Assembly (NCBI GenBank): GCA_021799185.1
Contig: JAJZAW010000002.1
Span: 1-39,473, forward strand
Direction of reading: 5' to 3'
Source of the DNA: Thermoplasmata archaeon
Lineage (GTDB): Archaea > Thermoplasmatota > Thermoplasmata > Thermoplasmatales > Thermoplasmataceae
DNA length: 39,473 bases
Below the pieces are notes generated by a model. That model saw only the letters and a list, made by a program, of their open reading frames with translations. It had not been told where the DNA came from and did no database searches. The position numbers and the translations under genes were made by a program. Positions 29,523-36,588 of the stretch are shown here, piece after piece; position 1 is the first letter of the stretch; each line of letters begins with the position of its first letter.

Positions 29523-30224
29523 ATGATGAAAGAAGGTAACAACTTCTACAGGGAAACGTACAATTTTGTTAAGAAACACAGCGCAACCAACAATGCGTTC
29601 ATCGACAGGTTTGCGCGCGGTGACATTACCGAGGGTGAATTCAGAAGATTCTCCAGAGAATTTTATCATTTTACAAGGGAATGGCCATCAATACTCTCAG
29701 TGTTGCTTGTAAATACTCCGGACGAAGATGACGCAGCAAACCTCACCACAATCCTTGTGTCTGAGCTTGGGGATGACAATCCCAGGAAGCGCCATGAACT
29801 CCTCTACAGATCTTACCTGAGAAGCCTCAACATAGAGCCCGTTGACCTTGTGGGAAGCAGGCAGCTGCCCACTACAAAGGCATGGCTTGATGGAATGCGC
29901 AATTACTTTGCCGGAGATCATTTCCAGGCACTTGGGGCTGAGTTCGGGCTGGAAAATATGGCAATACCAATGTGGGACAAGATTCTGGCCGGGATGAAGA
30001 TATGGGTACATAAACATCCGGAGTATTCAGGAATGGACATCAGGTATTTCACCTTCCACAGGGAACTTGAGGAACATCATGAAGAGGCCATGGAAAACGT
30101 GCTTGGCCAGCATGCAGATGATCCGGATGCCAGGAAAAAATTCATGGAAGGGGCTGACGGAATTTTGAGGCTTGAGGAGAAATTCTGGCTTGGCCTTTCA
30201 GACGGTGCCAATGGAAATATATGA
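29523..30224 (+). CDS. iron-containing heme-oxygenase-like redox protein (PqqC/TenA-like HDO family)
   Basis: A 233-residue all-helical protein of the heme-oxygenase-like diiron type. The likely metal-binding residues are Glu in VSELGDDNP (about residue 81), His in KRHELLY (about 91), Glu in GAEFGLENMA (about 140), and His and Glu in FHRELEEHHEEAMEN (about 180-192), in the order seen in HDO enzymes. It also has the family's helix (FARGDITEGEFRRFSREFYHF). It uses O2 on an unknown substrate. A TATA-like CCTTAAATATAG lies about 24 bp before the ATG; the next gene begins 18 bp after its stop. Confidence 0.75.
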   Translation: MMKEGNNFYRETYNFVKKHSATNNAFIDRFARGDITEGEFRRFSREFYHFTREWPSILSVLLVNTPDEDDAANLTTILVSELGDDNPRKRHELLYRSYLRSLNIEPVDLVGSRQLPTTKAWLDGMRNYFAGDHFQALGAEFGLENMAIPMWDKILAGMKIWVHKHPEYSGMDIRYFTFHRELEEHHEEAMENVLGQHADDPDARKKFMEGADGILRLEEKFWLGLSDGANGNI

Positions 30225-30845: not shown

Positions 30846-31181
30846 ACCCTTGCGCTTATGCTGTGCCTTCTTGATGCCAGGGAAGGCATATGTGCCCGTA
30901 CATAGGATCCACATTGGCACTGGCCCCATGCTTTTCAATCTCGGCTTAAGATTTTGGTGCGGATTTGAGCTTGAAAGGCTGAATGCCATGAGGTTTCCAT
31001 TCCCCTGCTGATCCAGTGCCATAAAGAGTATGCCGGATCTAAATTCTGCCGGCATAGCATATCGTGCTGCACGTGAATCTCTTCACTTTTCATGATTATT
31101 ATTTGCCAGCTATATCCCGCCAAGTATATTCACTGCATTATCCTGTATCAGTTTTTTATGCTCTGCCACATTACCAGGATC
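30846..31181. other. intergenic stretch without a confident gene
   Basis: Between the histidine phosphatase and PPC genes. The minus-strand 83-codon ORF (30804-31055) runs into the phosphatase gene and has no recognised motif. The stretch contains an 8-base inverted repeat (31029-31056) and the TATA box of the next gene near 31151-31158. Confidence 0.4.
31029..31056. repeat. perfect 8-base inverted repeat
   Basis: TATGCCGG (31029-31036) and CCGGCATA (31049-31056) around a 12-base spacer. It is GC-rich relative to its surroundings and could form a hairpin or bind a dimeric protein, upstream of the PPC-domain gene. Confidence 0.5.
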
Positions 31182-31598
31182 ATGCAATCTAAATCAGAGG
31201 GCAACAAGATCTTTCTTAAAATCGAATATGGCGAGGACATAAGGGATTGTCTCAATTCAATACTTGAGAAATACCATGTAAGTTCAGGGGAAATAGAGTG
31301 GGGACTTGGAGCAGCAAAAAACCTCGAAATTGGATATTATAATGGCACTGAATATATCCGTAGAACCTTTGAAGAACCCCTTGAAATGGTTGTTTTCCAT
31401 GGAAGCATTGCCTCTGTGGAGCCAAGGTTCCATATCCACTGCGCCGGGGCAGGACCAGACCATATTATGGTGGGAGGGCACTTCTTTTCAGGCACTGCCC
31501 AGCCCCTCATGGAAATCAGCATTACAAAGTTTGACGACATAAATATAGTCAGGGAAAAATCTCAGAAATCGGGCCTGATGGAAGCAACGCTTCTCTGA
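31182..31598 (+). CDS. PPC/DUF296 domain protein
   Basis: A 138-residue stand-alone PPC (DUF296) domain, as in plant AT-hook proteins and bacterial relatives. It reads IFLKIEYGEDIRDCL, GAAKNLEIGYYNGTEYIRRTF, EMVVFHGSIAS, FHIHCAGAG and VGGHFFSGTAQP, the standard order of the family. Prokaryotic PPC proteins are trimeric, with a conserved His pair and an unknown role. I take the ATG at 31182, not the track's 31092, because TTTTTATGC lies about 27 bp upstream and the extra 30 residues are not family-like. Convergent with the homogentisate operon. Confidence 0.85.
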   Translation: MQSKSEGNKIFLKIEYGEDIRDCLNSILEKYHVSSGEIEWGLGAAKNLEIGYYNGTEYIRRTFEEPLEMVVFHGSIASVEPRFHIHCAGAGPDHIMVGGHFFSGTAQPLMEISITKFDDINIVREKSQKSGLMEATLL

Positions 31599-31613: not shown

Positions 31614-32642
31614 TCAGATCATATCTTCCAGAAGCTCTGCCACTTCACTCTCCGGAGAATTGATCTTGCCTGCAATATATGGGAAATCATCACGCCCTAT
31701 GCCGTAGTCTCCAAGCCTCTGGGAGAAGCCCATATTCTTTATGAGGCTATCCACAGCCCTTGCGAACTGTTTTGCAAGCTCTGTCCTGTCTGATCCGGAT
31801 AATCCAAGCCACGATCCCATGAGTGCAAGGGGATCGGGGTTAACTTCCGCATAGTGCTTCAGCACAGCAGGCAGTGTTATGCAGCTTGTGACTCCATGGG
31901 GAATCTCCCATTTTGCCCCTATGGCACGGCCAATAAGGTGGCTCAGGCCAAATGGAGCATCAAATACCTCAAAGTATGAATACCAGGCGGCGAGCTGACA
32001 TTCGTGCTTTTCCTGAGAAGTGTTCCCGCGGATGTTGACAAATAACTTCTTCATTGCCTCCCGGGCCATAATCCTGGCAGGCTCACTTTTGAAATTGGAT
32101 ACCACTGTTTCAATAACATGATCCAGTGCCCTTATGCCCGATGTCCTCCACAATTTTTGAGGGGTTTCCATAGCGGGCTCCGGATCCAGAAAAATATACT
32201 GGGGCGTTATTCTTGGGTCCCTTATTCCGGTCTTCTCTCCACCTATTGAATATCCTGCTATGTGGGAAAACTCAGCTGCAGAGAGCGTTGTTGGAATCGC
32301 TATCTGGGGTGCTTCTATGTCGTAGTAATATCGGACAACCTTTGCAGCATCCTGAACGCCTCCGCCACCCACCGACAATATGGTGTCGCAATTTCTGTTC
32401 TTCATGAGCTCTGTGGCATGCTCAATCTCCTCCATTGGAGAATGCTGCGTCACCTCCCTGAATTCCGCGTACTCACAGGGAATGTTGCTGAGCAGGTCGC
32501 CGTAAAATGTGGTCTTTGAAACTGAATTTGAGGACATTACCATGACCTTTCTTGTACCAATCTCCTTCAGCAGATCCGGAATCTCTTTCAGCACGCCACT
32601 GCCATGATAAACCCTCCTGATTGGAAGATAATTGAACTTCAT
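31614..32642 (-). CDS. iron-type alcohol dehydrogenase family, maleylacetate reductase-like
   Basis: A 342-residue NAD(P)-dependent oxidoreductase, last gene of the homogentisate operon. It shows the NAD-binding SVGGGGVQDAAK and the IPTTLSAAEFSHIAGYS motif of maleylacetate reductases. The metal-binding Asp of true Fe-dependent ADHs (GxDAxxH) is replaced (GIRALDH), as also in the maleylacetate reductases, while the His in IPHGVTS is present. These reduce a C=C next to a keto acid. I take the ATG at 32642, which overlaps the HGO stop as ATGA; 32651 is the alternative. Its place beside HGO and FAH hints at maleylacetoacetate as substrate (inference). Confidence 0.8.
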   Translation of the reverse strand: MKFNYLPIRRVYHGSGVLKEIPDLLKEIGTRKVMVMSSNSVSKTTFYGDLLSNIPCEYAEFREVTQHSPMEEIEHATELMKNRNCDTILSVGGGGVQDAAKVVRYYYDIEAPQIAIPTTLSAAEFSHIAGYSIGGEKTGIRDPRITPQYIFLDPEPAMETPQKLWRTSGIRALDHVIETVVSNFKSEPARIMAREAMKKLFVNIRGNTSQEKHECQLAAWYSYFEVFDAPFGLSHLIGRAIGAKWEIPHGVTSCITLPAVLKHYAEVNPDPLALMGSWLGLSGSDRTELAKQFARAVDSLIKNMGFSQRLGDYGIGRDDFPYIAGKINSPESEVAELLEDMI

Positions 32643-33784
32643 CTGTACCATGATTCCATATATGACTTGTCTTCGACACTCATGGCATCGCCCGTAACTT
32701 TCAAGGGCTCATAGGCTTCCACCATAACTGCCACCTCATCCGTATCTGCTTTGCCTATGGCGGCTTCAAGTGCCCCTGGCTGTGGCCCATGTATCAGGCC
32801 CCTGACATGGAGCGTTACGGAACCGGGAGAAATACCTTTCCTGCTCATGAAGTTGCCCGAGGAATAGAAAAGAACCTCGTCAGTGTCAATGTTGCTGTGG
32901 TAATATGAAATTGGTATTGATCTTGGATGGAAGTCGAACTTCCTTGGCAGAAATGTTCCAATCATGAATGACTTTCCGCTGAAGGTCTCATGCACTGGAG
33001 GCGGCTGATGCAGCTTGCCAACAATGGGAGCCATTGAACTGGTGCTGATGGCAAAGGGATAGAGATAACCGTCCCATCCTGCCACATCAAATGGATTCAT
33101 ATCGCGCTCTTCCAGGAGAAAATAATCACCGAAATCCACAAGAACTGGAAACGATCCACGATCCGTAGAGGGTGCATTCAGGCGGGGAACGCGTATGTCC
33201 CTTGTATAGTATGGCGATCCCTCCTTAATCTGCCCGTAAACATTCAGGTACCTTGGCGGTATTGACGCCCTCTCTCTGGATTCCACCAGAAAGAACTCAA
33301 GGCCTGACGGTGCATCAAGTGTGTATGTGGTGCCCTTGGGAACGTACAGGTAATCCCCTTCTGAAATGTCAAGATCTCCCAGCACTGATTTCATCGTCCC
33401 ACGGCCGGAGTGGATGAAATACACCTCGTCATTCAGTGCATTTCTGTAAAGCGATCTGCCCTTCTCTGATGTTCGTGCCACTGAGAGCCTGACTGTGGAA
33501 TTGAACATCAAACACCGCCTTCCGGATACAAAATCGCCCTTTTTCTCCATAAGCCCTGTTTGAAAGTGCCTGTGAAGCATTACATCCGCATGGTCTCTGT
33601 CCACAGGATTGCGCGGAACCTTTTTCACCGCTTTGACCCTCGTAGGTTCGCCCATGTGGTACAGCAGGGAGTAAGGCCCGTCAAAACTCTCTTCCCCGAA
33701 AAGTTCCTCCCTGAGAATGTTCTTCCTGTCATCATATGTATGCCTGCTTTCAGGCATTCTGCCCTGTTTTACGTAATATGCCAA
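32639..33784 (-). CDS. hmgA: homogentisate 1,2-dioxygenase
   Basis: A 381-residue cupin-fold iron dioxygenase that opens the ring of homogentisate to maleylacetoacetate. Iron-site residues: His and Glu in SYYHSNIDTDEVLFY, and the second His in LIHGPQPG. The N-terminus YYVKQGRMPESRHT is family-typical, so I start at a TTG at 33784 one base after the FAH stop. The track start (33823) adds 13 residues inside FAH and is less likely. The C-terminus overlaps the next gene by ATGA. Part of a four-gene operon. Confidence 0.9.
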   Translation of the reverse strand: MAYYVKQGRMPESRHTYDDRKNILREELFGEESFDGPYSLLYHMGEPTRVKAVKKVPRNPVDRDHADVMLHRHFQTGLMEKKGDFVSGRRCLMFNSTVRLSVARTSEKGRSLYRNALNDEVYFIHSGRGTMKSVLGDLDISEGDYLYVPKGTTYTLDAPSGLEFFLVESRERASIPPRYLNVYGQIKEGSPYYTRDIRVPRLNAPSTDRGSFPVLVDFGDYFLLEERDMNPFDVAGWDGYLYPFAISTSSMAPIVGKLHQPPPVHETFSGKSFMIGTFLPRKFDFHPRSIPISYYHSNIDTDEVLFYSSGNFMSRKGISPGSVTLHVRGLIHGPQPGALEAAIGKADTDEVAVMVEAYEPLKVTGDAMSVEDKSYMESWYR

Positions 33785-33785
33785 C

Positions 33786-34706
33786 TCAATCTTCCCCCAC
33801 GATTCTCGTAACCAGGTCTCCAAGTATTTCAGAGTGGAATGAAACCTGGTCCCCTATCTTGAGCCATCCACCCTTTCCTGCTCCCTTCTCAAGTATACAT
33901 CCTCCTGACACTGTGCCGCTCATGATCACATCTCCAGGCTTTAGCATGGTCTCTGTGGAGGCCCATGAAATCATCTCCTGAAAAGTCCAGTGCATATCTT
34001 TCAGGTTTCCCTCCACAAAGAGGCTCCCATTCAGGCTGGCCTGAAGGCCACAGTCCAGTTTTCTGTCCTGATCCAGGTGTTCCGCCATCTCATCAGCAGT
34101 AACTATGAAGCGGCCAATGCTTGTGGCAAAGTCCTTGCTTTTGGACGGGCCCAGGCCGATTTTCATCTCCTTGCGCTGCTGGTCCCTGGCACTCCAGTCG
34201 TTCATGAGTGTGAAACCGAAAATGTGAGACCAGGCATCACCCACCGGTATGTTCCTGCCCTCCTTCCCTATTATTGCGCCAACCTCAAGTTCAAAATCAA
34301 GTTCGGACGAGAATCTGGGATACGGAAGATCATGATCACTGGCGTATATTGATGAATTTCCAGAGTAATAATATGCAGGAAATTCATACCATTCCGGTAC
34401 CATGTCAAGCCCCCTCAGTGACCTTGCAGTCCTGACATGCCCCTCGAATGCATAGAAATCCCTGATCTGATTTATGTATGGCATGGGAACAAGGTAGGAT
34501 GTTGGCACATGGTCTGTGATTCCTGCATAGTGCCCTTCAGCAACAAAATTCCTGATCTTTTCAATATTCTTCAGCACAATGGCGTAAAAAGATTTTCCTT
34601 CTTCAGTTACTGGCATTCCCAGAATATCCTCAAGATCTAGGAAACTTTCGCCAACAGAAACTACTGTTTTTATGCCGTCTTCGGTTTCAATCCTTGCAAT
34701 CCTCAT
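33786..34706 (-). CDS. fahA: fumarylacetoacetate hydrolase family protein
   Basis: A 306-residue FAH-domain hydrolase that splits a beta-diketone acid; in tyrosine breakdown, fumarylacetoacetate to fumarate and acetoacetate. It has the metal-binding ELDFELEVGAIIG (E-x-E pair), FTLMNDWSARDQQ, and GDVIMSGTVSGG near the C-terminus. It lies two bases after the HPPD stop and one base before HGO. FAH proteins are often permissive, so it may act on the succinyl form as well. Confidence 0.9.
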   Translation of the reverse strand: MRIARIETEDGIKTVVSVGESFLDLEDILGMPVTEEGKSFYAIVLKNIEKIRNFVAEGHYAGITDHVPTSYLVPMPYINQIRDFYAFEGHVRTARSLRGLDMVPEWYEFPAYYYSGNSSIYASDHDLPYPRFSSELDFELEVGAIIGKEGRNIPVGDAWSHIFGFTLMNDWSARDQQRKEMKIGLGPSKSKDFATSIGRFIVTADEMAEHLDQDRKLDCGLQASLNGSLFVEGNLKDMHWTFQEMISWASTETMLKPGDVIMSGTVSGGCILEKGAGKGGWLKIGDQVSFHSEILGDLVTRIVGED

Positions 34707-34708
34707 TG

Positions 34709-35794
34709 TTACAGGTTCCCTCTCCTTGCCTGCTCAGCCTCAATGGACTTGAAAAGCTCCCTGAAATTCCCCTTGCCGAATGATGTGGCACCCTTCCGCT
34801 GGATGATCTCATAGAAGAAAGTTGGCCTGTCTCCTACCGGTTTTGTGAAAATCTGGAGGAGATATCCGTCATCATCCCTGTCCACCAGTATATTCAGACG
34901 GCGGAGGTCTTCTATCTTCTCGTCGATTTTTCCCACACGATCCAGAAGAGTATCGTAATATACTGAGGGGGTTCTGAGAAATTCAACGCCCCTGGACTGC
35001 ATATCCGCAACAGTTTTCAGTATGTTGTCCGTTTGGATTGCAATATGCTGGACACCTGGTGAGTTGTAATAGTCCAGATATTCCTGTATCTGTGATTTCT
35101 TCAGTCCCAGTGCCGGTTCGTTGATGGGGAAGATGATTTTTCTGTCTCCATAATGAACAACCTTGGAACGGAGTGAGGAATATTCGGTGCTTATGTCCCT
35201 GTCATCGAAGCTTATAAGCTGATCGAAGCCCAGACCCTTAACGTAATAATTTACCCATGAATCCATCATCCTGTCTTCCACATTTCCCACAGTATGATCA
35301 ATCCTCTTCAGCCCCACATGTTTTCCGGGCGATTTGACTACCTCAAATCCGGGAGGGATCCCTGAAGGATAGCTGCCCTCTTCTACCAGAGTGTGCACAG
35401 TTTCACCGTACGAGTATATTCTGGCAGTATCAATTTTACCTTCTCTGCTGTCAATTTTAGATACAGGTGAAATCTTTGCAACGCCCCTCTTTTTCACAAA
35501 GTCAACCGTATCCCCTATGTTTTCAACACGTAAGGAGATATCCTTCACCCCGTCCCCATGATATCTCACATGGTCGGCTATCGGGGAATCATAGTTCAGG
35601 TAACTTGTGAAAATAAGCCGGACGTCACCCTGTCCCAGCAGGTATGAAACACGATCCCTCACGCCTGTCTCGGGCCCGGCATATGCAATCAGATCGAAGC
35701 CCAGCGCCTGCTGATGATAAAAAGCCCATTGCCTGGCAGAGCCCACATAATATTCCACAGCATTGACGGCATTGAATATGTTTTCGTTATCCAT
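34709..35794 (-). CDS. hpd: 4-hydroxyphenylpyruvate dioxygenase
   Basis: A 361-residue VOC-fold iron enzyme that makes homogentisate from 4-hydroxyphenylpyruvate. The iron ligands are His in RIDHTVGNV, His in GVQHIAIQT and Glu in FYEIIQR, in the expected order, and the C-terminal gate helix (GATSFGKGNFRELFKSIE) is present. Length and layout fit HPPD. It is the first gene of the four-gene operon. A TATA-like CTTATTACTG lies about 26 bp before the ATG, and a perfect inverted repeat sits just upstream of that, pointing to regulated use of tyrosine. Confidence 0.93.
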   Translation of the reverse strand: MDNENIFNAVNAVEYYVGSARQWAFYHQQALGFDLIAYAGPETGVRDRVSYLLGQGDVRLIFTSYLNYDSPIADHVRYHGDGVKDISLRVENIGDTVDFVKKRGVAKISPVSKIDSREGKIDTARIYSYGETVHTLVEEGSYPSGIPPGFEVVKSPGKHVGLKRIDHTVGNVEDRMMDSWVNYYVKGLGFDQLISFDDRDISTEYSSLRSKVVHYGDRKIIFPINEPALGLKKSQIQEYLDYYNSPGVQHIAIQTDNILKTVADMQSRGVEFLRTPSVYYDTLLDRVGKIDEKIEDLRRLNILVDRDDDGYLLQIFTKPVGDRPTFFYEIIQRKGATSFGKGNFRELFKSIEAEQARRGNL

Positions 35795-35919: not shown

Positions 35920-36588
35920 ATGATATCCTTGTCAGGCGAGATTTATACATACGTGGCCACTTTTTCCTTCAACGGCCCTTATTATTCATCGGAACAGAAG
36001 GAGAAAGATAGCATTGTTGATGCACTGAATACCGTATTCGCGCAATACCAGAAGAATCTCATCAACCTCAGGATGTACCGGTCAGTGAGGCATGACTGCG
36101 ATGTGATATTCTGGCTGTCGTCCCATGATCCCATGGATATGTCACGTTTCAAGGAAAGCGTAATGAGGGCTTTGAGAGGATACGGAACCGCACAGTACAG
36201 CATGTTCTCACTCTACGAGCATTCCCCCTATCTCAGGGACGCAAGGAGCCTTGAAGACACGCTCAGGTTTTCGCCTAAAAAGTATTTTGTTGCATACCCC
36301 ATGAGCAAGACTCCGGAATGGTACCTGATTGATCATGAGGAAAGGAAAAAGATACTGGCTGAGCATATAGCAATGGCCACCTCCCATCCGGAGAATCAGG
36401 ACATACGCTCCTACACAACATACTCATATGGCCTTGGAGATCAGGAATTTGTAGTGCTTTATGAAACAGATTCCCTTTCCCAGTGGTCTCACGTTACTGG
36501 TAAGCTCAGGGAAGCCAGGGCGCGGAAATGGATAATAAAGGAGGAGCCCATCCTCATTGGAATACTGTCGGAACCGCTTAAGTTCTGA
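35920..36588 (+). CDS. chlorite dismutase family (heme-binding, Cld/HemQ-like) protein
   Basis: A 222-residue two-ferredoxin-fold Cld protein. The C-terminal half is typical: KYFVAYPMSKTPEWYLIDHEERKKIL, then AEH (candidate proximal heme His), YSYGLGDQEFVVLYETDSL and RKWIIKEEPILIGIL. Bacterial HemQ makes heme from coproheme; archaea use the siroheme route, so the role here is uncertain and may be peroxide- or heme-linked. A Thermoplasma homologue structure exists as far as I recall. Divergent from HPPD, with an inverted repeat before its ATG. Confidence 0.85.
   Translation: MISLSGEIYTYVATFSFNGPYYSSEQKEKDSIVDALNTVFAQYQKNLINLRMYRSVRHDCDVIFWLSSHDPMDMSRFKESVMRALRGYGTAQYSMFSLYEHSPYLRDARSLEDTLRFSPKKYFVAYPMSKTPEWYLIDHEERKKILAEHIAMATSHPENQDIRSYTTYSYGLGDQEFVVLYETDSLSQWSHVTGKLREARARKWIIKEEPILIGILSEPLKF

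Follow-up and report, generated by a model that had tools for sequence, protein, structure and literature searches.

A homogentisate operon of Thermoplasmatales archaea with a maleylacetate-reductase-like fourth gene

A four-gene operon in a Thermoplasmata archaeon is a variant of the known homogentisate pathway, in which a reductase gene related to those of maleylacetate reductases follows the genes for 4-hydroxyphenylpyruvate dioxygenase (HPPD), a fumarylacetoacetate hydrolase (FAH), and homogentisate 1,2-dioxygenase (HGO). The operon lies in a contig stretch of 39,473 nucleotides, referred to here as the window. We put at roughly one in two the probability that the reductase (RED) provides an optional reductive branch, converting maleylacetoacetate to succinylacetoacetate that FAH would then cleave, and we consider this the best single explanation of the sequence comparisons described below. 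The broader proposition is more tentative and falls somewhat short of an even chance: in many of the acidophilic Thermoplasmatales, tyrosine would be degraded through a homogentisate pathway that is reductive and has no isomerase, with a metal-free RED of the MAR1 type and an FAH that releases succinate and acetoacetate.

The textbook pathway leaves a gap for glutathione-free organisms, which must somehow turn maleylacetoacetate into products that FAH can handle. If the proposal is correct, the reductive branch fills that gap in many of these archaea, yielding succinate instead of fumarate, and a metabolite of human tyrosinaemia becomes a normal intermediate. An earlier note on this DNA did not know the route as a described one, and the literature search agrees: the open papers that were searched do not describe archaeal homogentisate catabolism, this operon, or this variant, although closed-access work may exist.

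Operon layout and the homogentisate enzymes

HPPD (34709–35794), FAH (33786–34706), HGO (32639–33784), and RED (31614–32651) form, in that order, one tight operon on the minus strand. The raw list of open reading frames gave HGO as 32639–33823; a TTG at 33784, 1 base past the FAH stop, is more probable as the true start, since most relatives begin near there. That start would make the 38-base overlap of FAH and HGO in the raw list unreal, so that the earlier description of HPPD, HGO, and FAH as tightly overlapped would hold for the compactness of the operon but not for the FAH/HGO junction. The fourth gene does overlap, as first described: RED starts either at the ATG at 32651, overlapping HGO by 13 bases, or at the ATG at 32642, in an ATGA overlap, and the corresponding overlap in relatives is usually 4 or 13 bases.

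The first three genes can be assigned with differing kinds of evidence. HPPD passes the TIGR01263 equivalog cut-off (389 bits versus 277) and is present in the operon of every examined HGO-positive Thermoplasmatales locus whose contig reaches that far. HGO can be placed in the homogentisate 1,2-dioxygenase family because Priestia proteins with that annotation are 42% identical to it over 98% of its length, and it is of the short type common to Bacillota and Actinomycetota; it falls below the cut-off of TIGR01015 (33 versus 511 bits), which models a longer form, and a Pfam search returned no match. Its matches to the solved homogentisate dioxygenases 1ey2 and 3zds are weak, with the His and Glu ligands in register, and alignment to the human enzyme shows that the ligand motifs YYH...E and H...HGP are kept. 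FAH matches PF01557 (171 bits), and among solved structures it matches mouse FAH (1hyo) best. In mouse numbering, we take a true FAH to have a His133/Glu364 dyad and the metal ligands Asp126, Glu199, Glu201, and Asp233. The motifs DFY..EGH, ELE, NDWSARDxQ, K, and ...CILE are kept in aligned RED-positive and RED-negative relatives, the last being the equivalent of Glu364 by our reading of the alignment, and DFY....H, ELE, NDW, and CILE align in nearly all of the relatives' FAHs. Read in this way, the alignment indicates that the window FAH has the catalytic residue set of a true FAH. FAH sequence differences that track the presence of RED were sought by eye in the same alignment, and none was clear.

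The window thus carries HPPD, HGO, and FAH of the textbook HPPD-HGO-isomerase-FAH pathway in a single operon; it differs from that pathway in having a reductase as the fourth gene and no maleylacetoacetate isomerase or glutathione S-transferase (GST)-domain gene that we could find. Across 61 related genomes, searches for maleylacetoacetate isomerase (TIGR01262), the GST N-terminal domain (PF02798), and the mycothiol-dependent maleylpyruvate isomerase domain (PF11716) each gave 0/61, and the control genomes matched in every case. The genome that contains the window is 83% complete, and the same result came from several relatives that are complete single contigs. The earlier remark that the operon has no glutathione-dependent isomerase thus agrees with the searches of these genomes.

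RED as an Arg-type relative of maleylacetate reductases

RED matches PF00465 and PF25137. Among solved structures it is closest to 9ph0, deposited under the name MAR1, with an E value of 6e-46 for the single sequence and 4.8e-66 for a profile of RED orthologs, far ahead of bacterial maleylacetate reductases and true iron-dependent alcohol dehydrogenases (Fe-ADHs). A literature search found no paper on 9ph0, which we take to be a fungal maleylacetate reductase. The metal-binding Asp of the Fe-ADH family is replaced in RED by Arg174, which is invariant in the RED family, as are Lys140, Arg144, His178, His238, and His252 (12 diverse orthologs). Arg at the metal-Asp position and the TTLSAAE block are common to RED, MAR1, and some bacterial relatives; RED and MAR1 further share TG(I/M)RA.DH, GLSH.(I/L)G, and IPHG.TSC. 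A review of the family describes maleylacetate reductases as enzymes without metal that have Asn or Arg where the Asp would be and whose target is the C=C and not the C=O bond; it adds that FUM7, a fungal member of this subfamily, probably works on an alkene as well (PMC5125639). Judged by sequence, RED is an Arg-type relative of these enzymes and is probably metal-free. The initial placement of the fourth gene in the maleylacetate reductase branch, without the Asp metal ligand, is therefore borne out by MAR1 as nearest relative and by the invariant Arg174.

Comparison with GraC (3w5s), PcpE, and MAR1 shows both likeness and divergence. All belong to the Fe-ADH fold family and have lost the metal Asp, equivalents of RED Lys140, His178, His238, and His252 are kept, and in MAR1 the residue replacing this Asp is Arg, just as in RED; the invariant Arg144 is an extra residue common to GraC but not MAR1. 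His178 corresponds to the essential His172 of PcpE, an equivalence read through the GraC row of the alignment. In contrast, RED has Arg or Lys where the HxxxH pair has its second His, and neither the maleylacetate reductase signature LHHKLCHTLGG nor the essential Lys238 of PcpE (PMC5741723) is present in RED, which has GLSHxIG[R/K]xxGA instead; MAR1 likewise lacks both. RED also differs in genetic setting, with an operon that makes maleylacetoacetate rather than maleylacetate. Since Lys238 and the signature are not kept, the substrate of RED need not be maleylacetate-like. Furthermore, bacterial relatives of the MAR1 type sit in CoA-linked or transporter clusters and not in homogentisate clusters, indicating that substrates in the subfamily are varied.

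Association of RED with HGO and relatives without RED

The sample comprised 61 genomes of the order, 34 of them HGO-positive and 27 HGO-negative. RED orthologs, defined by a score of 229 bits or more, were present in 21/34 HGO-positive and 0/27 HGO-negative genomes (Fisher 8e-8, a value that takes the genomes as unrelated). The gene order reported in the earlier note recurs in relatives, with RED directly 3' of HGO at each of the 19 loci whose contig extends far enough. RED-bearing operons span two families of the order, and a 250-genome draw of the class yielded RED orthologs in the same two families only. Between two species of the genus, the dN/dS of RED is ~0.065, compared with 0.03–0.05 for HGO, FAH, and HPPD (dS being near saturation), and RED is under purifying selection. 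Because of its co-occurrence with HGO, its position after HGO, and its low dN/dS, RED likely works within homogentisate breakdown. As a separate observation, seven genomes of another family of the class carry a maleylacetate-reductase-like gene, and 7/7 also have HGO (L079:1212-2396:+; L080); the gene is of the Asn type in the two examined.

Thirteen HGO-positive genomes do not have a normal RED. One (G026) has HGO at the end of a contig and was left out, one (G012) has a decayed copy, and 11 have none. Those 11 relatives, in eight genera, carry HPPD, FAH, and HGO in the same order, without RED and without a known isomerase, and include two single-contig genomes of 99% completeness (G013 and G029). 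In G012, the RED-like gene (L043:5339-6376:-) occupies the expected position as an open reading frame, but the catalytic His, the Arg, the GGGS loop, and the PHG motif are gone, and the operon persists despite this decay. This copy is probably dead or repurposed rather than an active reductase of the RED kind, as its residues suggest. Both kinds of operon, with RED and without it, occur together in one genome (G035), and the presence of RED changes ~4–5 times on the operon tree. In addition, the FAHs of two RED-negative genomes (G010 and G028) are as similar to the window FAH as are those of many RED-positive species. Given this similarity and the 11 operons without the gene, RED is not strictly required; and since the isomerase gap between HGO and FAH exists with or without it, RED is not simply an isomerase stand-in. 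An optional reductive branch, or an enzyme that clears a reactive enone, fits better. The original suggestion of a reductase in place of the isomerase thus stands in part: the operon does hold a reductase and no known isomerase was found, whereas a required replacement is contradicted by the 11 RED-negative relatives and the decay in G012. The RED-negative loci hold nothing consistent in the position of RED, and the idea of an obligatory fourth gene at that site was therefore rejected. The question can be tested directly in sister species with and without RED and in the genome that has an operon of each kind.

Proposed reductive branch and its alternatives

Under the proposed scheme, HPPD would make homogentisate, HGO would open it to maleylacetoacetate, and RED, a MAR1-type enzyme, would use NAD(P)H and no metal to reduce the C=C bond in the 4-oxo-2-enoate end of maleylacetoacetate, giving succinylacetoacetate, which FAH would split into succinate and acetoacetate. 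We infer the substrate, product, cofactor, metal independence, and direction of this reduction, as well as the FAH step. Maleylacetoacetate and maleylacetate have the same oxo-enoate end, making a maleylacetate-reductase-like reduction plausible, and FAH in general accepts other dioxo acids. The branch would be optional; in RED-negative relatives, the ring-opening product would reach FAH by spontaneous or unrecognised isomerisation or by direct hydrolysis. Counting against the scheme is its potential cost. When FAH fails in humans, in tyrosinaemia, succinylacetoacetate is known to form (PMC2802351, PMC12949336), and it decarboxylates to succinylacetone (PMC12949336), and this disease state and succinylacetone have been linked to inhibition of haem synthesis (PMC2802351); the reductive route would therefore carry a price unless FAH acts quickly. 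A chlorite-dismutase-family (HemQ-like) gene is divergent from HPPD (window 35920–36588, plus strand) and kept there in many relatives; it is of interest in view of the inhibition of haem synthesis by succinylacetone.

Alternatively, no enzyme may be needed between HGO and FAH. Maleylacetoacetate could isomerise spontaneously in an acidic, thiol-containing cytoplasm, or FAH could hydrolyse the cis isomer, and RED would then be an accessory that removes a stalled or toxic enone, such as maleyl- or fumarylacetoacetate or an overflow product. This reading accommodates the 11 intact three-gene operons without RED or any isomerase family tested, as well as the repeated changes in RED presence on the operon tree. 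It also draws on the fold family of the window FAH, which includes the maleylpyruvate hydrolases 6jvv and 6jvw, named for hydrolysing a cis compound, and on a glutathione-dependent non-enzymatic bypass in mice, as named in a title cited in PMC6669923. However, RED is strongly conserved, probably co-translated, and kept in most HGO-positive species, which fits a steady flux better than rare detoxification, and by our reading of the alignment FAH carries the catalytic residues of a true FAH. We therefore regard this explanation as rather unlikely, though it is the strongest competitor of the reductive branch.

A further alternative, which we consider less probable again, is that RED reduces some other substrate of aromatic catabolism, such as an aromatic 2-oxo acid or maleylacetate that a different ring cleavage supplies, and shares only its regulation with tyrosine breakdown. 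The closest named relatives of RED are indeed maleylacetate reductases, and the CoA-linked and transporter clusters of its bacterial MAR1-type relatives point away from homogentisate. Against this, none of the 61 genomes has a RED ortholog without HGO, every locus with enough contig to show it places RED in the homogentisate operon, the flanks examined contained no recognisable hydroxyquinol dioxygenase, and the loss of the metal site speaks against carbonyl or alcohol chemistry.

Bacterial operons with the same HGO lineage (38–42% identity) offer a comparison. Priestia, Streptomyces, and Pseudonocardia are not known to make glutathione, and their homogentisate operons likewise contain FAH and no annotated isomerase nearby; they differ in having a long-form FAH and, instead of RED, an uncharacterised gene of 290–340 aa that adjoins FAH in Priestia, Streptomyces, and Pseudonocardia plasmids and also in a cyanobacterium, which probably has glutathione (L087:1186-2202:+; L092:7233-8111:+; L093:7179-8057:+; L091:3261-4157:-). 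Searches found no NCBIfam, significant Pfam, or solved relative of this family, whose invariant residues lie in D-A--FPP, K-RTGG, K-TAGLHH, and S-G-CS--P. The protein is a candidate glutathione-independent maleylacetoacetate isomerase, or another enzyme for the step between HGO and FAH, which suggests that different lineages may have solved this step with different proteins. Such a family also hints that unrecognised families serve the pathway, but the idea that an unrecognised glutathione-independent isomerase, encoded elsewhere, acts in all of these archaea with RED unrelated is very improbable: a search of the 61 archaeal genomes did not find the bacterial family (nor did any control genome match), and in the RED-negative operons no other gene holds a consistent place.

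Two further genes recur around these operons. A PCC-domain (PF03479) gene (window 31092–31598, plus strand) is convergent to RED or HGO in many relatives, with or without RED. A Haem_oxygenas_2/TENA-like iron enzyme (window 29523–30224, plus strand; L048:2982-3677:+) is encoded near HGO in 21 archaeal loci and overlaps HPPD in one, and in the cyanobacterium a protein weakly similar to it is encoded after HGO (L091:7328-8251:+).
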